Below, in pieces: positions 1 through 30,076 of a stretch of 34,250 bases of DNA (position 1 is its first letter; each line of letters begins with the position of its first letter). The notes beneath the pieces were generated by a model. It did not search any database, was not told where the DNA came from, and saw only the letters and a program-made list of their open reading frames with translations. The stretch spans positions 1 to 34,250 of the forward strand of contig JABHHM010000077.1 of the NCBI GenBank assembly GCA_018671575.1, in the 5' to 3' direction. A program made the translations under genes and the position numbers. This stretch comes from Methylococcales bacterium. Its GTDB lineage: Bacteria; Pseudomonadota; Gammaproteobacteria; JABHGC01.

Positions 1-137
1 AAACTACCCATATTGCGCAGAAGTTTTGTTTGTCTTTTTTGTTACAAAAATAGGCGTGTAGTCGCTCTACATAACTATTTTTGTGGCAAAGAAGACGGAC
101 AAAAGAGCCAGTAAGATGGGTAGTTTATTTATTGCGA
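1..137. repeat. Palindromic repeat family A, copy 1 (cut by window start)
   Basis: The ends AAACTACCCAT (from base 1) and ATGGGTAGTTT (to 126) are inverted repeats. The centre (about 47-86) is a near-palindrome, with AAAAATAGGCGTGTAGTCG facing a strand that ends AACTATTTTT. The sequence TTTATTTATTGCG at 125-137 matches the outer end of copy 3, so the element probably extends left beyond the window. It has the same orientation as copy 3 (21899-22062) and the opposite orientation to copy 2 (645-828). No reading frame is visible. It resembles a non-autonomous, transposase-mobilised palindrome (REP/MITE type), but the mobilising enzyme is unknown. Confidence 0.7.
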
Positions 138-378
138 GTTGCCTTACGCCTAAAGTCACTGAGATTTTAAAATGCTGAAAACTACAACGTGTTGAGGAAC
201 GATTGCCGATATAGTTGTTTGGTAAGGCAATTAATTTTAGATCATTATGATGGCAATTTTCTGCTTAAAAAATCGTTGGAAAAATATTTAAGCAACTCAA
301 TTTCAGATTATTATTAATAAAAGGTTATATGAAACATAAACATGATATTCCTCTGGCAAAGGAATAAAACATTATATT
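138..378. other. Gene-free spacer with short inverted repeats
   Basis: I see no credible gene here. TTGCCTTAC (139-147) and GTAAGGCAA (222-230) are an exact 9-bp inverted pair. TATTCCT (346-352) and AGGAATA (360-366) form a 7-bp hairpin just past the 3' end of the minus-strand FmdB-like gene. The hairpin lacks a T-tract, so it is at best a weak terminator. Confidence 0.4.
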
Positions 379-633
379 TTAACCATATTCACAACTACCA
401 CGCATTCCACAACTTCCATTACCACATTGTGAAGCTGATTCCCCCAAATTTCTACTATTCACAACCTGCCCCCCATTAACCAATTTGGTTACAGGGCTAT
501 TCAAAGGTGTTTCTCCCGCTGATATACCAGCGATTTGGCATAATTCACCCCAGTTTTTTATAACATCACTCATTTTGTGTTTAACTTCGATCAATTCTCC
601 GTTAGTTTCACAACGATAATCATAGGTTGGCAT
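379..633 (-). CDS. Small FmdB-like cysteine-rich (zinc ribbon type) protein
   Basis: This 84-residue protein starts MPTYDYRCETNG, the usual opening of FmdB-family putative zinc-ribbon regulatory proteins. It continues with EVKHKMSD, NWGELC and SPVTKL blocks and ends in a short Cys/Gly-rich tail. Cysteines lie near residues 8, 32, 70, 75 and 81. The classic FmdB CxxC pairs are not all present, so metal binding is inferred. An AAGGA ribosome site (complement of 643-647) lies about 9 bases before the ATG and overlaps the edge of palindrome copy 2. The gene stands alone, with palindromes on both sides. Members of this group are small soluble proteins without a firmly established role; the family name comes from a gene near formamidase/amidase operons. 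Gene call fairly sure, function open. Confidence 0.7.
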   Translation of the reverse strand: MPTYDYRCETNGELIEVKHKMSDVIKNWGELCQIAGISAGETPLNSPVTKLVNGGQVVNSRNLGESASQCGNGSCGMRGSCEYG

Positions 634-644
634 AGCAATTATTC

Positions 645-828
645 CTTAGGGGATGCGCAATAAATAAACATCCAACTTGCTTGTACCCAAAGGGCATAGC
701 AATTTTTTTGTCCGCCTTTTTTGTTGCAAAAATAGTTGTGTAGTTCGACTACACGCCTATTTTTTCGCCTCAAAGGCAAACAAAAATCCTGCGCAATTTG
801 GACATTTATTTATTTCGCTTCCCCTAAG
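645..828. repeat. Palindromic repeat family A, copy 2
   Basis: This 184-bp element has inverted ends: CTTAGGGGATGCGCAATAAA on the left and TTTCGCTTCCCCTAAG on the right. Its central near-palindrome includes ATAGTTGTGTAGTTCG and CGACTACACGCCTAT. It is the reverse orientation of copy 3 (21899-22062). Relative to copy 3 it has about 20 extra bases near 684-703. It sits directly upstream of the FmdB-like gene and contributes part of that gene's ribosome binding site. No coding potential is visible. Confidence 0.8.
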
Positions 829-1367
829 TAGATGATCGTAATATTTTCATCTGCTTATATTTCTTCGCCTGACATTATTTTACGTTCATCTCTGAGTAAA
901 ATTCCTTACTTTTCTCCGTACAATGACTAGTCACTGTATTGTCAAAATTTATCCTTTTGTTTTCAGCTAAATTTGCTTCCATCATTAATGGGTTCAAATT
1001 TTTGACTCTTGCTGAAAAAATAGCAAAAATTATCTTCAGTAAAAAACCTGTTTTTCTCTAACTCGCTGAAATTACAAATAAAAAACAATTCTAGTAATCG
1101 TCCTCGTGTCAATCAGGGATATCCCGTAACTGATTGAATATTAACCATATTAGGGATAATACTTCATTGAAAATGTGTCAAAAAAACGTCCAAAATATTT
1201 TTTTTTATTCGTAACTTCTAAAACTCTTATTTTCATTTATAAGACTATTCTTTAAGTCATTGATTATCAGTCTTATTATGAATTGTCAGTTTTTTCTCTT
1301 TTGTCTCTTTTATGCAATAAAACATCGCTAAGTGACTGAACTATATGGAATCTATAGGAGGGTGGTA
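829..1367. other. Long AT-rich gene-free leader upstream of mraZ
   Basis: About 540 bases contain no plausible gene on either strand. The only notable structure is a nested palindrome: CAATCAG (1110-1116) and CTGATTG (1130-1136) enclose the perfect palindrome GGGATATCCC (1116-1125). TGACTAGTCA near 923 is a further 10-bp palindrome. The mraZ promoter follows immediately. Confidence 0.5.
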
Positions 1368-1396
1368 TTGACAAAAATTTATAGAGTTTCTATAGT
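1368..1396 (+). promoter_or_regulatory. Probable sigma70 promoter of mraZ and the dcw cluster
   Basis: A perfect -35 TTGACA (1368-1373) is followed after exactly 17 bases by TATAGT (1391-1396), one mismatch from the consensus -10. Transcription would start near 1403, leaving a leader of about 100 bases before mraZ. The first MraZ-like box begins inside the -10, so bound MraZ could block RNA polymerase directly. Confidence 0.75.
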
Positions 1397-1459
1397 GGGG
1401 GTAAGTGGGAAAAAATGTATAAAAGTGGAATAAAGTGGGAAAATATGTTTTTGAGTGGT
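1395..1459 (+). promoter_or_regulatory. Putative MraZ operator: five GTGG boxes in exact 10-bp phase
   Basis: GTGGG occurs at 1395, 1405 and 1435, GTGGA at 1425 and GTGGT at 1455. The 10-bp slots at 1415 and 1445 hold degenerate ATGTA and ATGTT. MraZ of Escherichia coli and Mycoplasma is known to bind direct TGGG-type repeats spaced 10 bp apart upstream of mraZ. Position and spacing match that knowledge. This array covers seven helical turns, running from the -10 hexamer into the leader. Confidence 0.7.
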
Positions 1460-1500
1460 TTTGTGAATTTATCTATAAAGTCAAAAAATAGAGGTCAATA

Positions 1501-1935
1501 GTGTTTCGAGGCGATCAACATTTGACTATAGATGCTAAAGGGCGCATGGCGATACCAACCAAGTATCGAGAGACATTGCTTGAGCGCTATGATGGCAAGT
1601 TAGTGGTGACTGCTGACCCAGAAAGTTGCTTGTTATTATTTACTTTGCAGGATTGGGAAGAATTTGAAAGAAATTTATTGAAAGCACAAAAAGAAAAACA
1701 ATTGCCAAGGCTTAAAAAACTGAAACGGTTTTATATTGGGCAGGCGACAGAATTAGAAATGGATGGTAATGGTCGAATTCTATTGCCATCTACTTTAAGA
1801 AAGTTTGCGGGCTTAGATAAAAAAATAGTGATGTGTGGACAGGGTGATCGTTTTGAAATTTGGAATGAGCAAGACTGGAATGAGCAACTCAATGATGATA
1901 TGGATGAGCTGAAAGATTTGGCAGCATTATTTTAA
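1501..1935 (+). CDS. mraZ: MraZ, dcw-cluster transcriptional regulator
   Basis: This 144-residue protein is of the AbrB/SpoVT-like MraZ family, which forms ring-shaped oligomers and represses the dcw operon by binding TGGG repeats before its own gene. It carries two tandem MraZ domains. The first, near residues 5-50, includes LTIDAKGRMAIPTKYRE; the second, near 75-120, includes ELEMDGNGRILLPSTLR. Length is close to the usual 145-155. The start is GTG, giving MFRGDQ, the standard MraZ N-terminus. GAGG at 1491-1494 is a well-spaced ribosome site. The stop codon directly abuts the rsmH start. The upstream box array implies autoregulation. Confidence 0.95.
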   Translation: MFRGDQHLTIDAKGRMAIPTKYRETLLERYDGKLVVTADPESCLLLFTLQDWEEFERNLLKAQKEKQLPRLKKLKRFYIGQATELEMDGNGRILLPSTLRKFAGLDKKIVMCGQGDRFEIWNEQDWNEQLNDDMDELKDLAALF

Positions 1936-2871
1936 ATGGAAAAATTAAAAAACCACCTTCCTGTGTTATTGAACGAAGCAGTTGATGCCTTAAATATTAT
2001 TGAAGATGGCATATATATAGATGGTACATTCGGTCGAGGCGGACATTCACGAAAAATTTTAGAACAATTGGGTGAAAATGGTCGATTGATTGTCGTAGAT
2101 AAAGATCCTGATGCTATTCAATCTGCACATCATCTTGCTGTTGAAGACCAACGAGTTTCTGTTATTCATGACTCGTTTGCCAATTTAGTTCCGATCATTG
2201 AGAGGCGACAGTTAACGGGGAAAGTTAATGGCATTTTGTTGGACTTGGGGGTTTCATCTCCTCAGCTCGATATGGCATCCAGGGGTTTTAGTTTCATGAA
2301 TGATGGCCCGTTGGACATGAGAATGGATACTGAACATGGACAATCAGCCAGAGAATGGTTGGCTCATGTTAAAGAAAAAACATTGTCAGCTATTATCAAA
2401 AAATATGGTGAAGAAAAACACAGTAAATTGATTGCTCGTGGCATAAAAAACTATCAACTTGAAAATGAAATTAAAACAACGCTTCAACTGGCAAAAATAA
2501 TTGAAGATTCAGCACCAAGAAGAGAGAAGCACAAACACCCAGCAACAAGAAGTTTTCAAGCCATTAGAATTTTTATTAATGAAGAATTAACCGATTTGGA
2601 GGCTTGTTTAAAATCAATTGTCGATTTGTTGGCAAAAAATGGGCGATTGTCGGTGATCAGTTTTCATTCATTAGAAGATCGAATCGTTAAAAGATTCATT
2701 CGCAAACAATCTAAAGGTGACCCTTATCCAGATAACTTTCCAGTCAGGCAATGTGATTTGAATCCGACCATGAAAAGTGTGGGTAAGGCCATTTTCCCAA
2801 GTGAGGAAGAAATTAAGCAAAATGTTCGGTCTCGTAGTGCCGTTTTAAGGATTGCTGAAAAGTTAAGATGA
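1936..2871 (+). CDS. rsmH: RsmH, 16S rRNA (cytosine-1402 N4) methyltransferase
   Basis: RsmH (older name MraW) methylates N4 of C1402 in 16S rRNA, in the ribosomal P site, using S-adenosylmethionine. The 311 residues match the usual family length. [13 protein letters not shown] opens the protein. The SAM-binding loop is [14 protein letters not shown] near residues 29-42. [12 protein letters not shown] (near 101-112), [19 protein letters not shown] and [13 protein letters not shown] are family signatures. The gene starts on the base after the mraZ stop and overlaps ftsL by 4 bases (ATGA), indicating translational coupling. It acts in the cytoplasm. Confidence 0.96.
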
Positions 2872-3158
2872 AGTTTAAATTGGGTGTGATTTTTGGTTTG
2901 GCGGGTTTAATTGTGATGTCCAGTTTGGGTTTAATTTACAACAAACATGCCAATCGACAATTGATTGCTGAATTAAGAGAATTACAAAATCAGAATGATT
3001 TATTGCATATTAAAAATGGTCAATTGCAATTAGAGTTTGGTGCATGGACAACGCACCAAATGATTGAGCAAAAAGCAAAAAATCAAATTGGGATGAAATA
3101 CCCAGAAATAAATAAAATGTTTATCATAAAAAGTGAAAAAAGTCATGTGGGTTACTGA
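2868..3158 (+). CDS. ftsL: FtsL, divisome bitopic membrane protein
   Basis: This 96-residue protein has the FtsL layout: a very short cytoplasmic N-terminus, one membrane segment (about residues 5-24) and a periplasmic heptad-rich coiled coil (about 28-60), then a short tail ending [15 protein letters not shown]. FtsL pairs with FtsB and FtsQ and activates the FtsW-FtsI synthase. FtsL sequences are poorly conserved, so the call rests mainly on topology, size and position between rsmH and ftsI. It overlaps rsmH by 4 bases and ftsI by 14 or 26 bases, depending on the ftsI start. Confidence 0.88.
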
Positions 3159-4884
3159 ATCACATAAAGGCGAATATCAAAATTTTCCCAAACGAAAATT
3201 GAGCGTGCTTGTTGCTATGTCTTTGGTTGCTATTGTCTTAATGGCAAGATCGATTGACGTGCAAGTTATTAATAATGATCAGTTACAAAATCAGGGTGAT
3301 AAACGTCACATCAGAACCTTACAAACACAAGCTTATCGAGGTAAAATAAGTGATCGATTTGGTCGTCCTTTGGCGATTAGTACACAAGTTCATTCTATCT
3401 TTATTAATCCAAGGTTGATTAGTAAAGATGCTGATTGGATCGCTGATTTAGCAGATATTTTAGATTTGAAAAAAAAGCGTATCATCAATAAAATTGAAAA
3501 AAATAAACATCGCTATTTTGCTTATATAAAAAGGTGGGTAACACCTGCGACAACGGCCAAGGTCAATGCATTAATTAAGCAACATTCAATCAAAGGATTG
3601 TCGTTATTACCAGAATATAGGCGTTTTTATCCAATGGGTGAAATGTTCGCTCAAGTCGTTGGTTTCACCAACATTGATGACAAAGGGCAAGAAGGTATTG
3701 AGTTGGCATATAATCATTATTTAAAAGGAACGCCAGGCAAGCTACAAATAAAAAGAGATGCGAAACGAGAGATTATTGAAACAATCGGTATTAAATATAA
3801 AGAAAAAATAGGCAATGACTTGGTTTTAAGTCTGGATTCTAATATACAACATTTATTGCATCGAGAATTAAAAATTGCATTTGAAAAACATAATGCTAGA
3901 TCAGCTTCTGCGGTTATTTTAGATGTGAATACAGGTGAAGTGGTGGCTATGTCGAATCAACCATCATTTAACCCAAATAATAGAAGTAGTCTGAATGCAA
4001 CTCAACTAAGAAATCGTGCCGTTACTGATGTTTTTGAGCCAGGTTCTACTGTTAAGCCCTTTACCGTGGCAATTGGCTTGGAATCAGGATTGTTTAATGA
4101 AAAAAGTTTAATTGATACCACTGAAGGTCGATTGAATGTAGGTAGTCATTTGGTTAAAGATATTCATGATTACGGTAAAATAAATTTAGCTACTGTTATT
4201 CGAAAGTCCAGTAATGTCGGTGCAAGTACAATTGCATTATCATTAGATTCAGAATTTTATTGGAGAACATTGTCAAATATTGGTTTTGGTGAAGTCACTC
4301 AGAGTGGTTTTCCTGGTGAAACCACAGGAAAATTATTTCATTACAAGCGATGGAGTCGATTTAAACAGGCATCAATGGCATTTGGTTATGGTTTTTCATT
4401 AACAACATTACAGTTAGCTAAAGCTTATGTGGTGCTGGCATCGGGTGGTTACAATAAACCTATTTCTTTTACCAAAGTAGAAGGTGATATTTCAGGGACC
4501 AGAGTTTTTTCAAGAAAAACCACAGAAAAAGTATTGAGAATGATGGAAGCAGTTGTCAGAGAAAAAGATGGGACTGGACAATTGGCGCAAATAAAAGGTT
4601 ATCGAATTGCTGGAAAAACAGGAACAGTCCATAAATATCGGTCAGGTGGTTATGAAGAGGCGCGGTATTTGTCTTTGTTTTCAGGTGTTGTTCCTGCCAG
4701 TAATCCAAAATATGTTATGGTGACGATGGTTAATGATCCAAAATCAGGTAAGTATTACGGTGGACAAGTCGCTGCTCCCGTTTTTTCAAATGTAATGAGT
4801 AAAGTCTTGAGAATGAAAAATGTATTGCCTGATGATTTATCCAGTTTGGATATAAAAACAGCCAATAATAGTTGGACACATTAA
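3133..4884 (+). CDS. ftsI: FtsI (PBP3), septal peptidoglycan transpeptidase
   Basis: FtsI cross-links septal peptidoglycan with FtsW. It has a short cytoplasmic tail, a membrane helix near residues 23-39, a pedestal domain containing RGKISDRFGRPLA (69-81), and a C-terminal transpeptidase domain. The active-site motifs are visible: SxxK as STVK (305-308), SxN as SSN (359-361) and KTGT (495-498). The 583 residues match the family. The long form starts at GTG 3133; an ATG at 3145 gives 579 residues and a smaller overlap with ftsL. Neither has a strong ribosome site, so the start is uncertain by four residues. The stop is 4 bases before murE. Confidence 0.95.
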   Translation: MKKVMWVTESHKGEYQNFPKRKLSVLVAMSLVAIVLMARSIDVQVINNDQLQNQGDKRHIRTLQTQAYRGKISDRFGRPLAISTQVHSIFINPRLISKDADWIADLADILDLKKKRIINKIEKNKHRYFAYIKRWVTPATTAKVNALIKQHSIKGLSLLPEYRRFYPMGEMFAQVVGFTNIDDKGQEGIELAYNHYLKGTPGKLQIKRDAKREIIETIGIKYKEKIGNDLVLSLDSNIQHLLHRELKIAFEKHNARSASAVILDVNTGEVVAMSNQPSFNPNNRSSLNATQLRNRAVTDVFEPGSTVKPFTVAIGLESGLFNEKSLIDTTEGRLNVGSHLVKDIHDYGKINLATVIRKSSNVGASTIALSLDSEFYWRTLSNIGFGEVTQSGFPGETTGKLFHYKRWSRFKQASMAFGYGFSLTTLQLAKAYVVLASGGYNKPISFTKVEGDISGTRVFSRKTTEKVLRMMEAVVREKDGTGQLAQIKGYRIAGKTGTVHKYRSGGYEEARYLSLFSGVVPASNPKYVMVTMVNDPKSGKYYGGQVAAPVFSNVMSKVLRMKNVLPDDLSSLDIKTANNSWTH

Positions 4885-4888
4885 GTTA

Positions 4889-6373
4889 ATGAATGAAGAA
4901 TTTATTTCATTTTTATCCGATATCAGCGGTGTTTCAAATATTAATAATGTGAATTTTGGTGACTTAACTTTAGACAGTAGAGAGATTATTCCAGGAGATT
5001 GTTTTATTGCTTTAAATGGGGTGAAACAACATGGTTTGACATTTTCCAGACAAGCCATAAAAAATGGAGCGAAAGCTATTGTTTATGAGGCTGAAGGTAT
5101 TGAAATAAACGATTTTGTTGGTGAGACAGAAGGTGTCCTATTATTGCCTGTCTTGGGGTTAAAAGATAAGTTAGCTGAGTTAGCGAAAAAGTTTTATGGC
5201 AATCCGTCTGACAAACTTAAATTAATCGGCATAACGGGGACAAATGGAAAAACATCGTGTAGTCATTTTGCGGCTGAATGTTTAAATCAAAAATATAAAT
5301 CAGCTGTCATGGGAACGATTGGAAACGGTATTGTTGGGCATTTAAAGCAGTCATCTCATACAACGTTAGATATTATTTCTATTAATAAAATGCTAAATGA
5401 CTTTAGCAAAGATGATGTTAAGAATGTTGTGATGGAAGTTTCATCGCATGGCTTGGATCAGGGGCGAGTTGCAGAACTTAAATTTCAAACCGCTGTATTT
5501 ACCAATTTGACGAGAGACCATTTGGACTACCATAAAACAACAGAAAATTATGCAAAATGTAAGCTGAAATTGTTTGCCATGAAAGATTTAAAAAATGCAG
5601 TTGTTAATGTAGATGATCCTTTTAGTCAAACCATTTTGGATCATTTAAATCATCAAATTAATGTGATTGTTTATGGAATCAAATGGGTTAAAACAGACAA
5701 AAATTATGTTTTTGCTCGTGATATAACATTTGAACCCAATGGGATGGTCGTTAATTTTACATCATCCTGGGGTGATGGGGTTTTCAATACAAAATTATTG
5801 GGTGATTTTAATGTCAGTAATCTTTTGGCTGTACTAGGCATATTATTTTGTTCTGGAATAACCGTAGATAAGGCCATTAATTATATACAATCAGTGAACA
5901 ATGTAGCGGGTAGAATGGAAAAGTTTACGGCTAATAACTTACCAAAAGTTATAGTGGATTATGCGCATACTCCCGATGCTTTAGAAAAGGCATTAAAGAC
6001 TTTAAATTCACATTGCGATGGGAAAATATGGTGTGTTTTTGGTTGTGGTGGATCAAGAGACCAAGGTAAAAGAAAAATAATGGGAGCCATTGCTGAACAA
6101 ATGTGCGATCAGATTGTCCTAACAGATGATAATCCTCGAGAAGAACAATCTGAAAAAATTATAGAAGATATTTTACTGGGTATGATCAATAAGCCGATGG
6201 TAATAATTAAGCAAGATAGGCGACAAGCGATCGAATATGCTGTGACTAACGCAGATATGAATGATTTTGTTCTGGTGGCAGGTAAAGGCCATGAAAATTA
6301 TCAGGAAATTAACGGAAGGCGTTTGCCTTATTCTGATAGAGAGATTGTTAGTAATCTTGGAATGCTGAATTAA
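4889..6373 (+). CDS. murE: MurE, UDP-MurNAc-L-Ala-D-Glu:meso-diaminopimelate ligase
   Basis: MurE adds the third amino acid of the peptidoglycan stem in the cytoplasm using ATP. The 494 residues show the three Mur ligase domains: an N-terminal UDP-binding part (LTLDSREIIPGDCFIAL), the ATP-binding centre with GTNGKT at 117-122, and a C-terminal domain. The motif DNPR (in LTDDNPREEQ) is typical of enzymes specific for meso-diaminopimelate rather than lysine, which fits a Gram-negative cell. VVDYAHTPDALEKAL and CVFGCGGSRDQGKR are further signatures. It starts 4 bases after ftsI and shares one base with murF (TAATG). Confidence 0.96.
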   Translation: MNEEFISFLSDISGVSNINNVNFGDLTLDSREIIPGDCFIALNGVKQHGLTFSRQAIKNGAKAIVYEAEGIEINDFVGETEGVLLLPVLGLKDKLAELAKKFYGNPSDKLKLIGITGTNGKTSCSHFAAECLNQKYKSAVMGTIGNGIVGHLKQSSHTTLDIISINKMLNDFSKDDVKNVVMEVSSHGLDQGRVAELKFQTAVFTNLTRDHLDYHKTTENYAKCKLKLFAMKDLKNAVVNVDDPFSQTILDHLNHQINVIVYGIKWVKTDKNYVFARDITFEPNGMVVNFTSSWGDGVFNTKLLGDFNVSNLLAVLGILFCSGITVDKAINYIQSVNNVAGRMEKFTANNLPKVIVDYAHTPDALEKALKTLNSHCDGKIWCVFGCGGSRDQGKRKIMGAIAEQMCDQIVLTDDNPREEQSEKIIEDILLGMINKPMVIIKQDRRQAIEYAVTNADMNDFVLVAGKGHENYQEINGRRLPYSDREIVSNLGMLN

Positions 6374-7731
6374 TGTTTAACATGACCTTATCAAAATTAG
6401 CAAAAATAGTTGATGGTTGTTTGTATGGGGATGATGAATCTTTTGAGTGTATATCATCAGATACTCGTGCGATTAAACAAGGCGATCTTTATTTGGCTAT
6501 TAAGGGTGAAAGTTTTGATGGTCATCAATTTGTTGATGAGGCAAAGAAAAAAGGTGCTGTTGCCGCTATTGTTAGTCAAAAAAATGATTATTTAATGCCT
6601 ATTGTTGTGGTGGATGATACCGTCATTGCTTATGGTAAGTTGGCGGCATACTGGAGACAACAATGTAAGCTTAAAGTGGTTGCATTGACGGGAAGTAATG
6701 GCAAAACGACTGTTAAAGAGATGATTGCCGCTATTTTGTCACAAAAACAGCCAACTTTATCCACTCAAGGTAATTTTAATAATGAAATTGGATTGCCTAA
6801 AACATTGATGAATTTAACAGAGAAGCATCATTTTGCAGTCATAGAAATGGGTGCGAACCATATGGGTGATATTGCTTATTTAAGTCAGATAACAAAGCCT
6901 GATATTGGGTTAATTACCAATGTGGGAAGTGCTCATCTGGAGGGGTTTGGTTCCGAGGCTGGTGTGGCAAAAACCAAAGGTGAAATAATTGATGCTTTGT
7001 CATTAAATGGCATCATGGTTTTAAATGCAGATGATAAATATTTTTCTGAGTGGAAGCAACGAGCCAATGGTAAAGAAATTATTAGTTTTGCAATGTTATC
7101 TGAGGCAGATATTTCAGTAAATCGCATTGCTGAAAAAATTGAAATAAAAAACAATCAGTTTTATCAGCAGTATGACGTTATTACGCCGATTGGTCATGTA
7201 TCAATTAAGTTGTCATTGGCAGGAGCGCATAATGTGATGAATTCGTTGTCTGCCATTGCCGTTGCTATTGGCTTAGATTGTACTTTAGCAGAAATAAAGC
7301 AAGGTTTAGAATCAATAAGACCTGTTAAAGGTCGATTATGCCCAATGTTTGATGAACAAGGTGTTTGCTGGATTGATGATACTTATAATGCAAACCCAAC
7401 ATCGAGCCAGGCAGCATTAGATGTTTTAAGTCGATGTGATGGTGAGCGTATATTTGTTCTAGGTGATATGGCAGAATTAGGAGATGATTCTGTTAAGTTA
7501 CATGAAAAAATAGGTTGTCAGGCAAAAAAACAAGGTATTCAAACGATGTTTGCCATTGGTAAGGATAGTCAATATGCGATTGAACAGTTTGGTGAAAATG
7601 GGAAACATTTTGATGTTATAAACGAACTAATTGAGTCGCTTGACAATCAATTAAAATCACCAATGACTATTTTAGTCAAAGGTTCAAGGTCACAAAAAAT
7701 GGAACGTGTGATTAATTATTTTAACAAATAA
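6373..7731 (+). CDS. murF: MurF, UDP-MurNAc-tripeptide:D-Ala-D-Ala ligase
   Basis: MurF joins the D-Ala-D-Ala dipeptide made by Ddl to the UDP-MurNAc-tripeptide, completing the cytoplasmic pentapeptide precursor. The 452 residues match the family. The ATP loop GSNGKTT is at 107-113. Other marks are [23 protein letters not shown], the domain-linking [12 protein letters not shown] and VLGDMAELG. The start overlaps the murE stop by one base, so translation is probably coupled. An alternative ATG three codons later is possible but does not affect the domain. Confidence 0.96.
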
Positions 7732-7742
7732 AGAATAAATTT

Positions 7743-8825
7743 ATGTTACTGGCTTTAGCTGATTATTTAACTCAATATCACAGTGGTTTTAATGTTTTCC
7801 AATATTTAACCATGCGAGGTATTTTAGCAACTCTAACCGCATTAATAATTTCATTTATTGTGGGACCCATCATGATAAAGAAATTGAGTTTTCATCAAAT
7901 TGGTCAAACTGTTCGGGATGATGGACCTGAGAGTCATTTGAGTAAAGCGGGTACCCCCACCATGGGTGGCGCATTAATCTTAGTAACAATCAGTATTGCA
8001 ACCTTGTTGTGGGCTGATTTATCCAATCGATATATTTGGGTTGTTTTAGCGGTTACATTGGCTTTTGGCGTAATTGGTTTTTATGATGATTATAAAAAGC
8101 TGGTGCTCAATGACTCAAAAGGCTTGATCGCCCGTTATAAATATTTTTGGCAGTCAGTGTTTGGTTTGGGTGCGGCAATATTTTTATATATGACGGCGAC
8201 AATGCCAGCTGAAACACAATTATTGATTCCCTTTTTTAAAAATATTTCATTAGAAATGGGTTGGTTGTTTATACCATTAACTTATTTTGTGATTGTTGGC
8301 ACAAGCAATGCTGTTAATTTGACCGATGGCTTAGATGGTTTGGCAATCATGCCGACAGTGATGGTTGGTGGTGCATTGGGGCTTTTTGCGTATGTTTCAG
8401 GGCATGCAAAATTTGCTGCTTATTTGACAATACCCTTTTTACCTGAAGTGGGTGAAGTCATTGTTTTCTGTGGTGCATTGGTTGGTGCAGGCTTGGGTTT
8501 TTTATGGTTTAACGCTTATCCCGCCCAGGTATTCATGGGGGATGTTGGAGCTTTGGCTTTGGGGGCAGCACTTGGAGTTGTTGCTGTTGTTGTCAGGCAA
8601 GAATTGGTATTGGTTATTATGGGTGGGGTATTTGTTGCTGAAACGGTATCTGTTATTTTGCAAGTTGCTTCCTTTAAATTAAGGGGTAAGAGAATTTTTA
8701 GAATGGCACCGATACACCATCATTTTGAACTAAAAGGATGGCCTGAGCCAAGAGTTATCGTGAGATTTTGGATTATTACAGTTATTCTGGTTTTGATAGG
8801 ATTGGCATCATTAAAGATACGATAA
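7743..8825 (+). CDS. mraY: MraY, phospho-MurNAc-pentapeptide transferase
   Basis: MraY transfers phospho-MurNAc-pentapeptide to undecaprenyl phosphate at the inner membrane, making lipid I. The 360 residues equal the E. coli length. About ten membrane segments are visible. Signature loops are the acidic [29 protein letters not shown] and the histidine motif [13 protein letters not shown] near residues 323-335, all on the cytoplasmic face in the family. It begins 11 bases after murF and shares one base with murD. Confidence 0.97.
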
Positions 8826-10153
8826 TGAATAATTCTATCATTTTAATTGTGGGTTTAGGGAAAACTGGATTGTCATGTTTGAAATTTTTAAGCCAATCAA
8901 GTGCTCAAATTTTGATCAATGACAGTAGAAAAAATCCACCAGGAATAGATATTGTCAAAAAAAACTATGCAGATTGTGCATTGGTTTTAGGTCAATGGGA
9001 TAAAAATTATTTTGAGCGGGCAGATGAAATCGTACTAAGCCCTGGCGTATCGTTGCAAGAACCATTGGTTAAAGAGGCTATTGAGAGCGGTAAAAAAGTC
9101 TATGGTGATATTGAATTATTCGTTAATCATGTTGATAAACCTATTGTTGCAATCACTGGTTCTAATGGCAAAAGCACGGTAACAACCATGGTGGGTAAAA
9201 TGGCAGAAAATGCCAATTTAAATGTAAAGGTGGGTGGTAATATTGGTGTTCCAGCACTTGATTTGTTGGGTGATGAAAAAACGGATTTATATGTACTGGA
9301 ATTATCCAGTTTTCAATTAGACACTGTATTGTCATTGAGTGCTGATGTTGCGATTGTGTTGAATGTTAGTCCAGATCATATGGATCGTTACTCAGATATG
9401 CAACATTATACTGAGTCAAAGCAGAAAATTTATCAAAATGCTCGTGTCAAAGTGGTTAATAAAGACGAAATTAGAGTTGGGTTAATGGTTAAGGCTGAAG
9501 AAAATCAGGTTCGTTTTGGAATGAGCGAGCCTGGAGACAATGAATTTGGAATTCGTAAAATAACAGATAAAAGTTATTTGGCTTATGGTAATGAAAATTG
9601 GTTAAATATCAGTCAATTAGGTGTGATTGGCGAACACAATATAGCCAATTCATTGGCTGCTTTATCCATAGGGCAGTCGCTTGGCTTTTCTAAAGAGTCG
9701 ATGTTGCAAACACTTAAAACATTTTCTGGATTGGCTCATCGTACTGAAATGATTAAGTATAAAAATGGAATTAAATGGATTAATGATTCTAAAGCCACAA
9801 ATGTTGGAGCCAGCGTTGCCGCTATTAAGGGGTTACAGCAACCCATTATTTGGATTGCAGGTGGAGAAGCAAAAGAAGATGATTTTTCTGAACTGGTCAA
9901 AGTAGTAAAAAATAAAGTGAAACTGGCTTTATTAATGGGAAAAGATGCAAAATTAATTGCTGATTCGATACAGAAAGAGGTTCCTGTCATGCAGGTGTCA
10001 TCGTTAAAAAAAGCAGTTATTGAGGCAAAAAATAATGCGACTAAAGGAGATGTGGTTTTATTGTCTCCTGCTTGTGCAAGTTTTGATCAATTTAAGAATT
10101 TTGAAGACAGAGGTTGTCAATTTAAATTGGCCGTTGAACAGGTGGCACAATGA
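8825..10153 (+). CDS. murD: MurD, UDP-MurNAc-L-Ala:D-Glu ligase
   Basis: MurD adds D-glutamate to UDP-MurNAc-L-Ala. I start it at ATG 8825, which shares one base with the mraY stop (TAATG) and gives 442 residues beginning [18 protein letters not shown]. The frame stays open 19 codons further upstream, but that part only overlaps mraY and has no MurD character. The N-terminal fold has the GLGKTG loop (about 10-15). The ATP loop GSNGKST is at 112-118. ELSSFQLD, the NVSPDHMDRY region and NDSKATN (near 326) are classical. The stop overlaps ftsW by 4 bases (ATGA). Confidence 0.95.
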   Translation: MNNSIILIVGLGKTGLSCLKFLSQSSAQILINDSRKNPPGIDIVKKNYADCALVLGQWDKNYFERADEIVLSPGVSLQEPLVKEAIESGKKVYGDIELFVNHVDKPIVAITGSNGKSTVTTMVGKMAENANLNVKVGGNIGVPALDLLGDEKTDLYVLELSSFQLDTVLSLSADVAIVLNVSPDHMDRYSDMQHYTESKQKIYQNARVKVVNKDEIRVGLMVKAEENQVRFGMSEPGDNEFGIRKITDKSYLAYGNENWLNISQLGVIGEHNIANSLAALSIGQSLGFSKESMLQTLKTFSGLAHRTEMIKYKNGIKWINDSKATNVGASVAAIKGLQQPIIWIAGGEAKEDDFSELVKVVKNKVKLALLMGKDAKLIADSIQKEVPVMQVSSLKKAVIEAKNNATKGDVVLLSPACASFDQFKNFEDRGCQFKLAVEQVAQ

Positions 10154-20482: not shown

Positions 20483-20935
20483 TTATTTATCTGGTTTGTG
20501 ATTATTAGATAATTTGGTTAACGCACTTCTAAGTTGTTCGTCATCAATGTTTTCTGCCGCATTTTTAAGTAATGTGGATACATCGTCTGTCATTAATAGT
20601 TTATCTGGTTTGGGTTTGTCCCTTTGCTTAGGATTGTAGCTAATTACTTTAATCCGAATGCTTTTAATTTCTTTGTAGTTGGTTTTGTTAAGTGATTCAA
20701 TCAGCATCGGCGTGTAATAACGGATTTTGTTACACCAGGCAGAATTTTTTGTGTATAGTGTCATTGAATTATTGTTCTGAGGAACAGCTCCAAGGCAATG
20801 CTGTTGAATCGATTTAGGTAAGAATGATTTAATGGTATTCAATAGTCTGAGTTGTATTTTTGCTACTTCAATAGTTGAATGCAATGATTTGTTGTTATTT
20901 TGAATAATAGAATTAAGTGATTTAGGTTTTTTCAT
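20483..20935 (-). CDS. dciA: DciA-like DUF721 protein, predicted DnaB helicase loader
   Basis: The 150-residue protein has the DUF721 core: LRLLNTIKSFLPKSIQQHCLG, then SMTLYTKNSAWCNKIRYYTP with the family's conserved 'S/T-x-x-W' turn, then SIRIKVIS. DUF721 is the DciA family, which loads the replicative helicase DnaB in bacteria lacking DnaC. The tail after residue 105 is charged and probably disordered. Its place between lpxC and the M23-secA genes matches the Pseudomonas arrangement as I recall it. It is on the opposite strand to its neighbours, starts only 15 bases from the M23 start, and has no clear ribosome site. Family fairly sure; role inferred from family. Confidence 0.8.
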   Translation of the reverse strand: MKKPKSLNSIIQNNNKSLHSTIEVAKIQLRLLNTIKSFLPKSIQQHCLGAVPQNNNSMTLYTKNSAWCNKIRYYTPMLIESLNKTNYKEIKSIRIKVISYNPKQRDKPKPDKLLMTDDVSTLLKNAAENIDDEQLRSALTKLSNNHKPDK

Positions 20936-26916: not shown

Positions 26917-28329
26917 ATGACTGATATTTTAGTATTAGACCAAGGCGGTCAATCAAGTCGTGCCTGTTTGTTTTCTCCAGCAGGGGAAAAAATTGCATCA
27001 TCAAAAGTAGCAATTAAAACCAGGCGTTATGACAATCTGTTTGTTGAGCATGATGCTGACGAATTAATAGAATCATTGTTGCAGGCATCTCAAGATGTAC
27101 TGAAGTCCTGCAGTGATGAGTGTGTGTCTGGTCTAGCAACGCAGCGTTCCAGTATTGTTTGCTGGGATACTGAAACGGGTCAGCCTTTAACGCCTGTTAT
27201 TAGTTGGCAAGATCGTCGTGCTTATCAATGGATGCAACAATTTCAATCACAAAAAAAACAAATTTATCAAGCTTCAGGGCTATTTCCTACAGCTTACTAT
27301 GGCGCCAGCAAAATAAAGTGGTGTTTATCCAATGTTCCTGATGTTGTCAACGCCTACCAGAATCAAACCTTGTGTTGTGGCTCATTAGCCAGTTACATTA
27401 TCTTTAAACTGACCAAAGAGCGGCAATGTTTGTGTGATGCTGTTAATGCATCCAGGACATTGTTGTGTGATGTAAAATCATTGTCATGGAGTTCATATTT
27501 GCTGAAACTTTTTGGCATTGATGATCGTGTTTTGCCAAAAATTGTACCCAACCATTATTCATATGGCATATTAGCTATTGATGGATTTAATATTCCACTG
27601 ACGTTAGTCACAGGAGATCAGTCCAGTGCTTTATTTGGTTTTGGTCAAATTAAAGCAAATACGTTGGCTATTAACATGGGGACGGGGGTTTTTATTCAGC
27701 GTCCGATACCAAGTTTAAAATTAAATGATGATTCTCAGTTATTAATAAGTCCTATTTTGCAGAATAATAAAAAATCATCCTATGTCATTGAAGGCACTGT
27801 GAATGGTGGTGCTTCTGCAATAGCTTCGATGGATGAATTATTGTCAATTCAACAAAGTGAGTTGGAAAAATTGACGTTTCCTGTCAATGATTCGGATAAA
27901 ATTCCCTTGTTCATCAATGGTGTTGGGGGTGTTGGTTCTCCTTATTGGTTGCCGAACATAAAATCTCAGTTTATTGGTGAGGGGACTGGTCGACAAAAAA
28001 TGATTGCAGTCTTAGAAAGTATTGCTTTTTTAATAAAGAAGAATATTGATAGCATGGCTGAAATCTCTGCGGTATCAGAAAAGGCGTTTATCAGTGGTGG
28101 TTTGTCGAATAATGCTTATTTGGTTGGAGCATTGATGCAATTGACGGGGTTGAGGCTCTGTCAGTCAATGGATCATGAATTAACCATTAAAGGGATTGCT
28201 TATTTAATAACAGGCAAAGAATGTTTTACTTCAATTCCAAATGAAATTCCCAGTGTTGTTAAGGATGCAGGATTGTTGCAACGTTATCATTATTGGGAAA
28301 AACAGATGGGTCTTTTGGTTGCTGAGTAG
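26917..28329 (+). CDS. FGGY-family carbohydrate kinase, substrate unknown
   Basis: This 470-residue ATP-dependent kinase has the two-domain FGGY fold. Visible motifs are LDQGGQSSRACLFS (7-20), where glycerol kinase has DQGTTSSR; ATQRSSIVCWD and WQDRRAYQW; GDQSSALFGFG with the catalytic-base Asp; NMGTGVFI, the phosphate-binding loop; EGTVNGGASAI; and SGGLSNNAYL near the end. It is closest in style to glycerol kinase, but several substrate-loop residues differ and it is shorter than GlpK (about 500), so I do not call it glpK. No transporter or sugar gene is nearby. Upstream inverted elements separate it from argJ. It converges with the WCX gene, 9 bases away. Confidence 0.85.
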   Translation: MTDILVLDQGGQSSRACLFSPAGEKIASSKVAIKTRRYDNLFVEHDADELIESLLQASQDVLKSCSDECVSGLATQRSSIVCWDTETGQPLTPVISWQDRRAYQWMQQFQSQKKQIYQASGLFPTAYYGASKIKWCLSNVPDVVNAYQNQTLCCGSLASYIIFKLTKERQCLCDAVNASRTLLCDVKSLSWSSYLLKLFGIDDRVLPKIVPNHYSYGILAIDGFNIPLTLVTGDQSSALFGFGQIKANTLAINMGTGVFIQRPIPSLKLNDDSQLLISPILQNNKKSSYVIEGTVNGGASAIASMDELLSIQQSELEKLTFPVNDSDKIPLFINGVGGVGSPYWLPNIKSQFIGEGTGRQKMIAVLESIAFLIKKNIDSMAEISAVSEKAFISGGLSNNAYLVGALMQLTGLRLCQSMDHELTIKGIAYLITGKECFTSIPNEIPSVVKDAGLLQRYHYWEKQMGLLVAE

Positions 28330-28338
28330 CAATATTAT

Positions 28339-28635
28339 TTATGAGGCTGTTTGTGCCTGTTCATCCTGAAATATTTGAGGTTCTAATATTTTTAACTGAT
28401 TACGACCAAAGCTATAAAGCCAGTTTCTTAATTCATAACTGTCAATAATGGTGGCTTCTAATAATAAGTCTCCGTTATCAACTACTTTCAATGTTTGGTC
28501 TTTACTTAAATAAGTTTCATGCCATTGAATAGCAACTTCTTTGGTTAATTTTATTTTGAGTTTAAATTCATCTTTATTGATGGGGGATTTAAAAGAAATA
28601 TTTGGCTGTTGTTTATTTGCAACTATTGTATTCAT
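28339..28635 (-). CDS. Stand-alone WCX (WYL C-terminal extension) domain protein
   Basis: This is a 98-residue soluble protein. From about residue 22 it matches the C-terminal WCX domain of WYL-type transcription regulators: a strand FKLKIKLTKEVAIQWHET, then SKDQTLKVVDNGDLLLEATI, then ELRNWLYSFGRNQLKILEPQ. In the family this domain follows an HTH and a WYL domain; neither is present here. The upstream 300 bases contain no recognisable WYL remains. A possible minus-strand promoter and its own ATG argue that it is expressed as it is. It may be a decayed remnant or a small partner of a full-length regulator elsewhere. Domain assignment is by eye. Confidence 0.65.
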   Translation of the reverse strand: MNTIVANKQQPNISFKSPINKDEFKLKIKLTKEVAIQWHETYLSKDQTLKVVDNGDLLLEATIIDSYELRNWLYSFGRNQLKILEPQIFQDEQAQTAS

Positions 28636-28668
28636 GGCGGCATCTTCTTTTTTTATGGGCTTAAATTA

Positions 28669-28697
28669 AGCATAGGCTAAGAAAACTAGTGTTGCAA
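28669..28697 (-). promoter_or_regulatory. Possible promoter of the WCX gene
   Basis: On the minus strand TTGCAA (28697-28692), a 17-base spacer and TATGCT (28674-28669) resemble a sigma70 promoter with two mismatches in each hexamer. It lies about 35 bases before the ATG. Confidence 0.4.
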
Positions 28698-28762
28698 GAA
28701 TACTTTTTAAGTAGGGTTATGTGAGACAAAAATATATCTGTTGTATATAGGGGACAATTTTG

Positions 28763-28800
28763 AAAAGAAGAGATTGTAATGTTCGGATTTCTCTTCTTTT
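28763..28800. terminator. Strong AT-rich hairpin, possible terminator of the zf-CHCC operon
   Basis: AAAAGAAGAGA (28763-28773) and TCTCTTCTTTT (28790-28800) are an exact 11-bp inverted pair with a 16-base loop. It lies downstream of the minus-strand ilvE-zinc finger pair. The A/T ends of the stem could serve as the U-tract in either direction, but no long external T-run follows. Confidence 0.45.
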
Positions 28801-28842
28801 ACTCTATTTCCGTATGGGGGGAAGGAAATATTCATTTACGCC

Positions 28843-28903
28843 TGTAAACTCATGCTTTTGCCTTGAACTGAAACAAAATAGGACAACTTAACAATTACGG
28901 GTG
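28843..28903 (+). repeat. Short dispersed repeat, copy 2
   Basis: TGTAAACTCATGC and TTTTGCCTTGAACTGAAA, with the following bases, match the repeat at 25258-25320 in the same orientation. It lies 42 bases past the 3' end of the zf-CHCC gene. A 7-bp hairpin, GGTGAAT and ATTCACC (28900-28918), overlaps its end. Confidence 0.55.
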
Positions 28904-28944
28904 AATAATTAATTCACCGAGGTAGTTGCAAAATTTTGTGTTGG

Positions 28945-29130
28945 TTATATTAATGTATATTCGGCTCCGCAATAAGGACAAGTTGCATGACCTGTTTTTT
29001 CAATGGGTAAATAAACTTTAGGGTGTGAGTCCCAAAGACTCATCTGTTTACCTGGGCAATGTAAGGGAAGGTCTGTCTTGCTAACATCATATCTTTTTTG
29101 TGCGTTGGGTGTTATTTTTTGTTGATCCAT
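28945..29130 (-). CDS. zf-CHCC zinc-finger protein
   Basis: This 61-residue protein has the zf-CHCC pattern: LHCP (C25), WDSHPKVYLP (H36), then CPYCGAEY (C51, C54), giving a Cys-His-Cys-Cys zinc site. The family is related to the mitochondrial complex I subunit NDUFS6. Bacterial members are small proteins of unproven role, often beside ilvE in gammaproteobacteria. It starts 16 bases after the ilvE stop on the same strand, so the two are probably cotranscribed. Confidence 0.88.
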   Translation of the reverse strand: MDQQKITPNAQKRYDVSKTDLPLHCPGKQMSLWDSHPKVYLPIEKTGHATCPYCGAEYTLI

Positions 29131-29146: not shown

Positions 29147-30076
29147 TTAAATATAAGTTAACCAGTCATCATACTGATTATTTTTACCATGAACCAAATC
29201 AAAATATTGTGTTTGCAATATTTCAGTCATTGGACCTCGTTTTCCTTTTCCAATTTGACGACTATCTAGTTCTCTAACAGGGGTCACCTCTGCCGCTGAA
29301 CCCGTTAGAAAAACTTCATCAGCAATATAAATTTCATCACGAGTTAGCCTTTTTTCGATAACTTTAAAGTTATTTTTATTCGCTAATTCAATGATGGTTC
29401 TTCTGGTGATTCCATCCAGTGCAGAAGTCAGGTCAGGTGTGTAAATAATATCATCACGAATAATAAATAGATTGGCTCCACTGGCTTCTGCTGCATAACC
29501 TTCGGTATCAAGTAGTAAAGCATCGTCTGCTCCACAAGATGTGGCTTCTTGTAATGCCAGCATGGAATTCATGTAATTGCCATTGGCTTTGGCTTTGCAC
29601 ATGGTGACATTGACGTGGTGTCGGCTGAAAGATGATGTTTTTAATCTCAGGCCTAATGATTGAACTTCTTCACCAAAATATTTTCCCCAGTTCCAAGCGG
29701 CAATAATAACATGGACTTTGAGGTTGTCAGCCCTTAAGCCTAATCCTTCTGCTCCGAAGAAGCACATGGGGCGAATATAGGCCCCTTCAAATAATTTGTT
29801 ATTCTTAACCGTTTCTATTTGTGCCGTATTCAGTTCATCAGAGCCATAGGGTATTTTCATATTGAGAATATGAGCCGATAGGAACAAGCGTTTAGTGTGT
29901 TCTTGTAATCTAAAAATGGCGCAACCATGTTCTGTTTTATAGGCACGTAAGCCTTCAAAAACGCCCATTCCGTAATGCAAAGTATGAGTTAATACGTGTG
30001 TTTTTGCATCTTTCCAGGGAACAAATTCGCCATCGTACCAAATGACGCCTTCACGATCTTCCATCGACATAGTCAT
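29147..30076 (-). CDS. ilvE: Branched-chain amino acid aminotransferase
   Basis: IlvE is the PLP enzyme that transfers the amino group between glutamate and the keto acids of valine, leucine and isoleucine. The 309 residues match E. coli IlvE. VIWYDGEFVPWKDAKTHVLTHTLHYG is the family opening, GVFEGLRAY follows, and KANGNYMNS carries the PLP lysine (about K163). EASGANLF, DGITRRTI and FLTGSAAEVTPV bind the cofactor and substrate. ATGs at codons 1, 3 and 5 leave the exact start open. It is followed by the zf-CHCC gene and preceded by glnE at 63 bases on the same strand. Confidence 0.96.
   Translation of the reverse strand: MTMSMEDREGVIWYDGEFVPWKDAKTHVLTHTLHYGMGVFEGLRAYKTEHGCAIFRLQEHTKRLFLSAHILNMKIPYGSDELNTAQIETVKNNKLFEGAYIRPMCFFGAEGLGLRADNLKVHVIIAAWNWGKYFGEEVQSLGLRLKTSSFSRHHVNVTMCKAKANGNYMNSMLALQEATSCGADDALLLDTEGYAAEASGANLFIIRDDIIYTPDLTSALDGITRRTIIELANKNNFKVIEKRLTRDEIYIADEVFLTGSAAEVTPVRELDSRQIGKGKRGPMTEILQTQYFDLVHGKNNQYDDWLTYI

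Follow-up and report, generated by a model that had tools for sequence, protein, structure and literature searches.

The window analysed here, a stretch of 34,250 nucleotides from a Methylococcales bacterium, contains a short reading frame that resembles only the C-terminal (WCX) domain of WYL regulators. The locus raises the question of whether this frame encodes a free WCX domain that works on its own or is what is left of a larger regulator gene.

28339..28635, minus strand: WCX ORF, 98 aa, ATG start, open frame; WCX domain at residues 24-96

Homology and coding signal

The homology to WCX and the reading frame are both real. The frame was credited in an earlier note with a start of its own, and an ATG does open 98 codons that occupy exactly 28339..28635 of the minus strand. 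Residues 24-96 match Pfam WCX (PF25583) with 28.9 bits (E 1.5e-6, cut-off 23.9), and the ORF scores 29.3 bits in a whole-genome profile scan. A profile of 46 distinct full-length WYL proteins, themselves collected through WCX and query searches, gives it 51.3 bits, compared with a maximum of 2.4 bits for 300 frames from 50 shuffled gaps. No other Pfam family lies above its cut-off on the 98-aa protein (one other appears, below its cut-off), and Pfam identifies no HTH domain in it. NCBIfam returns no match at E 0.1, the PADLOC WYL model is matched at its C-terminal end only (model positions 95-158 of 162, 21.4 bits), and searches of PDB sequences and of PHROGs yield one insignificant match each (E 0.92 and E 0.12, respectively). 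Comparison with both profiles thus bears out the assignment of the protein to the C-terminal domain alone, without HTH or WYL parts.

Codon usage of the ORF is gene-like (0.292 bits per codon): among the controls, 25 of 90 segments of true genes score lower and none of 450 off-frame segments scores higher. The length of the ORF is by itself weak evidence, since a first-order Markov simulation of the 615-bp region produced an ORF of at least 98 aa in 70 of 5000 cases. An A/G-rich AAAGAAG sits where the ribosome-binding site could be. The plausible promoter that had also been claimed was not recovered: a scan of the minus strand from 28636 to 28900 identified no sigma-70-like site, the best relaxed sites having 8 of 12 matches, or 9 if the spacer is 15 bases long.

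Probable truncation at both ends

Everything N-terminal of the WCX domain is absent from the ORF, and no part of the relatives can be matched reliably to its first 13-22 residues. In the MAFFT alignment residues 1-11 are scattered over the end of the WYL domain, local alignments to class relatives start at residues 14-38 with two exceptions at 6 and 10, and reliable similarity begins at about residue 14-25. This lack of a counterpart fits both a remnant and a working domain.

Towards the C-terminus, P86 falls in the column of an invariant proline (100% of the alignment) and is followed by 12 residues. The 51 rows of that alignment have 19-45 residues after it; one row (L109_+0_1) is spurious and was excluded from the profile, the tree and the class-member constraint test. 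In a second set, of 40 relatives, at least 19 residues follow the conserved proline. The conserved L and R after the proline are replaced by F and Q in the ORF. In PafBC, according to the parts of the WYL survey drawn on here (PMC6789036), the C-terminal helix after a conserved proline pairs with the partner WCX, and P86 may be the equivalent of that proline. Judged from the alignment, most of a PafBC-type WCX pairing helix would then be missing from the ORF; the missing helix has no space without overlap, because only 9 bp separate the ORF from the kinase gene. A free domain that lacks most of the pairing helix would be ill suited to WCX-WCX pairing. By analogy with CapW, where each WCX crosses over to the WYL of its partner in the portion of the report consulted (PMC9122588), it could still touch a WYL face. 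Several family-conserved residues (Q47, G55, L69, G77 and P86) are kept in the ORF.

A single-sequence structure model of the 98-aa protein has a mean pLDDT of 60. Checked for a ferredoxin-like fold, this low-confidence model gives the order beta-alpha-beta-beta-alpha, with the last strand drawn as a helix. The helix covers residues 78-96 at a confidence of 51-64, where the relatives lead one to expect a strand and then a helix; this modelled helix counts against the missing-helix point, though it is given little weight. With so poor a model, searches by structure were ambiguous. Foldseek returned no match at E 0.001, with the DriD C-domain in second place (probability 0.99, E 0.014) after an unrelated chaperone, and VIA returned no Z of 8, with DriD at rank 45 (Z 4.5).

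Constraint on the frame

Of 27 positions conserved in at least 70% of 40 relatives, the ORF departs from the consensus at 11 (41%), compared with a median of 12% and a maximum of 36% for the members; these relatives were chosen by their match to the query or to the Pfam profile, so that poorly conserved intact members are under-sampled, and two of the 17 from the phylum (L178 and L179) are alike over the part shown. With the 23 class members alone the ORF departs at 9 of 22 positions (member maximum 35%), and at the strictest threshold of 0.9 with all 40 relatives at 4 of 12, which one member equals. Some of the departures are conservative exchanges, such as V to I and L to F. These comparisons suggest that the ORF may be under relaxed or altered constraint.

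In simulation, 6-8% of random substitutions create a stop in the ORF, and an unselected frame is still open in 47% of cases after 10 substitutions, 6% after 45 and 0.35% after 90. If most of the departures at conserved sites postdate the truncation, an open frame without selection is unlikely. Either the truncation is recent and most of the divergence earlier, or some selection still keeps the frame.

Surroundings of the ORF and the same locus in relatives

The other features around the ORF are the following.

28636..28944, minus strand: upstream gap, 309 bp, without WYL or HTH trace (profile, tblastn)
28900..28918, minus strand: terminator-like hairpin downstream of the zinc-finger gene, near the gap start; consensus match only
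28330..28338, no strand: gap of 9 bp between convergent stops, from the WCX ORF stop to the kinase stop
26917..28329, plus strand: FGGY-family carbohydrate kinase, convergent; glycerol-kinase-like, below NCBIfam cut-offs
28945..29130, minus strand: zf-CHCC zinc-finger protein, upstream neighbour on the same strand as the WCX ORF
29147..30076, minus strand: branched-chain aminotransferase, presumably IlvE-like; synteny anchor

Along the minus strand the order is a glnE-like gene, the ilvE-like gene, zf-CHCC, the 309-bp gap, the WCX ORF, 9 bp and the convergent kinase gene; the glnE-like gene is the large minus-strand gene before the ilvE-like gene, and we take it to be glnE from its resemblance. 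The upstream gap could hold at most 103 codons, compared with roughly 230 missing residues, and no HTH or WYL remnants were identified in it by profile or tblastn (best tblastn E 0.35). Two terminator-like hairpins were found in the kilobase, compared with 0.4 expected, and the one at 28900..28918 would separate the zinc-finger gene from the WCX ORF. The FGGY kinase gene is located after argJ, and its product scores 262 bits against the GlpK-type model, with a cut-off of 590. Elsewhere in the window, a DciA-family gene at 20483-20935 on the minus strand (Pfam 34.6 bits, cut-off 24) has a weak codon signal and lies on the strand opposite to its neighbours.

Among the best 80 of 530 relatives at the ilvE / zinc-finger locus, 76 carry the zinc finger. 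None of these 76 loci, at least four of which hold less than 1 kb beyond the zinc finger, contains a meaningful WCX match, whole or cut (best E 1.7). The earlier note had envisaged that relatives might carry a full-length regulator here; the 76 loci show neither that nor a short version, so the fragment or its parent either arrived in the lineage of the window or disappeared from the other lineages. A fixed position after the zinc finger was considered for the gene that we take to be waaF and was rejected, since 16 of 77 loci carry it on the same strand and no more than 2.4 kb away. Changed gene order is therefore shown only relative to the other genome of the family (G001), in which the zinc finger is followed by another gene and the upstream neighbours keep their order.

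Relatives in other genomes

In the class sample of 369 genomes, 26 besides that of the window match the protein (28 matches, E 0.01 or better), and 27 of the 28 matching frames are at least 324 aa long; the exception, of 178 aa in G302, begins near a contig end. In the phylum sample of 398 genomes, 34 besides that of the window match (40 matches). The top seven phylum matches, with identities of up to 44%, are frames of 334-413 aa from another class, six of them in one family (f207). The best relative is a 340-aa frame in G476, with 45.7% identity over 70 residues. No match was found in the one other genome of the window's order that was compared. The best relatives thus lie in another class, which, as far as such a sample goes, hints at a possible transfer between classes.

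Nine frames shorter than 250 aa, besides that of the window, occur among the class WCX matches listed. Six are at or near contig ends (G302, G301, G365, G170 twice and G354), with the placement of G301, G354 and one of the G170 frames judged from coordinates alone. The other three, in G227, G084 and G313, are WYL genes that are broken or partial. Five of the 40 phylum frames are shorter than 250 aa (G580, G507, G607, G508 and G574:C116), all of them, by coordinates, within about 600 bases of a contig end on the upstream side. The matches listed from the 369 class and 398 phylum genomes accordingly include no clean short WCX relative, and the orthologues of the same short length that the earlier note had suggested looking for did not emerge from them. 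Plasmids and viral contigs contain no relative of the ORF, and a phage collection gave two weak matches (E 0.01), one of which falls within the C-terminal part of a full-length CDS.

The record CAKLQH020000004.1, labelled as an Acinetobacter phage, is probably a bacterial chromosome, because gidA is encoded on it, along with a full-length CDS whose end resembles WCX. The broken or partial WYL genes of three other class genomes (L116 in G227, L137 in G313 and L135 in G084) show that breakage of WYL genes, or assembly error resembling it, is not rare.

The full-length WYL regulator of the same genome

The assembly is a draft of 524 contigs, 90% complete, in which other WYL genes may be missed; at E 0.001 its only other WCX match and its only WYL match are one 327-aa HTH-WYL-WCX protein on contig C196. 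Its gene immediately precedes a type I-F CRISPR operon (cas1f, cas3f, csy1, csy2; 1-9000, L187), which suggests that this regulator is CRISPR-linked. The regulator resembles the ORF in belonging to the same family and having a WCX domain, and differs from it in subgroup, being of WHPxQ type whereas the ORF is of PLSxDQ type (the latter label is coined here). In the WCX-domain tree, which has few columns and in which the ORF is odd in composition and long-branched (1.84 compared with a median of 0.66), the C196 regulator falls in the WHPxQ group, split from the group of the ORF by a 100/100 branch. A full-length WYL gene, to whose product a free domain might have been a partner, is found in this genome, once and in another subgroup.

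Origin of the ORF

The ORF is probably, with considerable room for doubt, the remnant of a WYL regulator gene truncated on both sides. The parent would have been an HTH-WYL-WCX regulator gene of the PLSxDQ subgroup that sat or landed between the zinc-finger and kinase genes. A deletion or rearrangement would have taken the HTH and WYL domains together with most of the helix at the end of WCX, and left an open frame, perhaps translated, without a DNA-binding or sensing part. We infer that sequence was deleted, that this happened recently and that the ORF has no function. Speaking for this reading are the full length of nearly all class relatives matched, the short C-terminus, the many departures at conserved positions, the long branch, the lack of a good promoter, and the absence of a meaningful WCX match from the 76 loci and from the other genome of the order. 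Speaking against it are the open frame with its gene-like codons, the potential ribosome-binding site, the modelled helix, the one relative that departs as much at the strictest threshold, and the absence of an intact ancestor from this locus in the relatives compared. A remnant with recent loss of the 5' part, one of two readings in the earlier note, stands as the best-fitting one, with the amendment that sequence was lost at the C-terminal end too, only 12 residues following P86. Read as a remnant, the ORF illustrates ordinary gene decay and serves as a caution that Pfam WCX matches can mark fragments. The finding is real, though probably an ordinary one.

The other reading of that note, a free domain that modulates a full-length WYL protein, is weakened and now appears unlikely, though by no means negligible. 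Such a protein would bind the WYL-WCX face of a full-length regulator, or nucleic acid, and tune it in a dominant-negative-like manner. The open frame with gene-like codons, the five retained family residues and the presence of a full-length HTH-WYL-WCX regulator in the genome are consistent with it, as is the position of WCX domains at the dimer and ligand interface, as given in the consulted parts of three reports (PMC6789036, PMC9122588, PMC11804915). It is weakened because the PafBC-type crossing C-terminal helix is, by alignment, mostly missing, because the one full-length WYL regulator found belongs to WHPxQ, on the far side of the 100/100 branch, and because there is no clean short relative among the matches listed; the conserved sites, moreover, have changed more than in nearly all relatives tested. 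A more specific form, in which a selected WCX micro-domain without the pairing helix caps the WYL-WCX groove of another regulator or binds nucleic acid, is improbable. If a working free WCX domain were nevertheless encoded, it would represent a kind of small regulator of WYL proteins that did not turn up in a narrow check of open-licence literature, where the titles and the starts of abstracts of the papers listed name no free WCX protein.

Less probable still is an assembly artefact, in which a wrongly joined contig would have brought the 3' part of a WYL gene to this site. The fragmented state of the draft and the different gene after the zinc finger in the other genome of the family would allow for it. 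No HTH-WYL part that could complete the ORF is present elsewhere in the assembly, though about 10% may be missing, the upstream neighbours stand in the same order as in the family relative, and two false joins would be needed, as both ends are cut, 309 bp and 9 bp from the neighbouring genes. Finally, a chance ORF merely resembling WCX, whose length the simulated regions would permit, is effectively refuted by the family-profile score, far above that of any shuffled frame, and by codon usage above that of all off-frame controls.

Comparison with known WYL proteins

In the parts of the WYL survey consulted (PMC6789036; 15,079 entries), an HTH precedes WYL in over 90% of sequences and WYL occurs mostly together with WCX. 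As described there, the survey started from the WYL domain and for this reason could not list WCX-only proteins. The broken or partial WYL genes of G227, G313 and G084 resemble the ORF in being short WCX frames, but these genes retain a WYL part within or next to the fragment, and none was found at the ORF. HTH-WYL-WCX regulators of the PLSxDQ subgroup, such as the frame in G476, share the C-terminal domain with the ORF; they are at least 324 aa long with at least 19 residues after the proline, whereas the ORF has 98 aa and 12 residues. PafBC, DriD, BrxR and CapW belong by profile to the same WCX family as the ORF, but, as far as the portions of their descriptions drawn on here go, they bind DNA as full-length dimers and have a WYL sensor, unlike the ORF.
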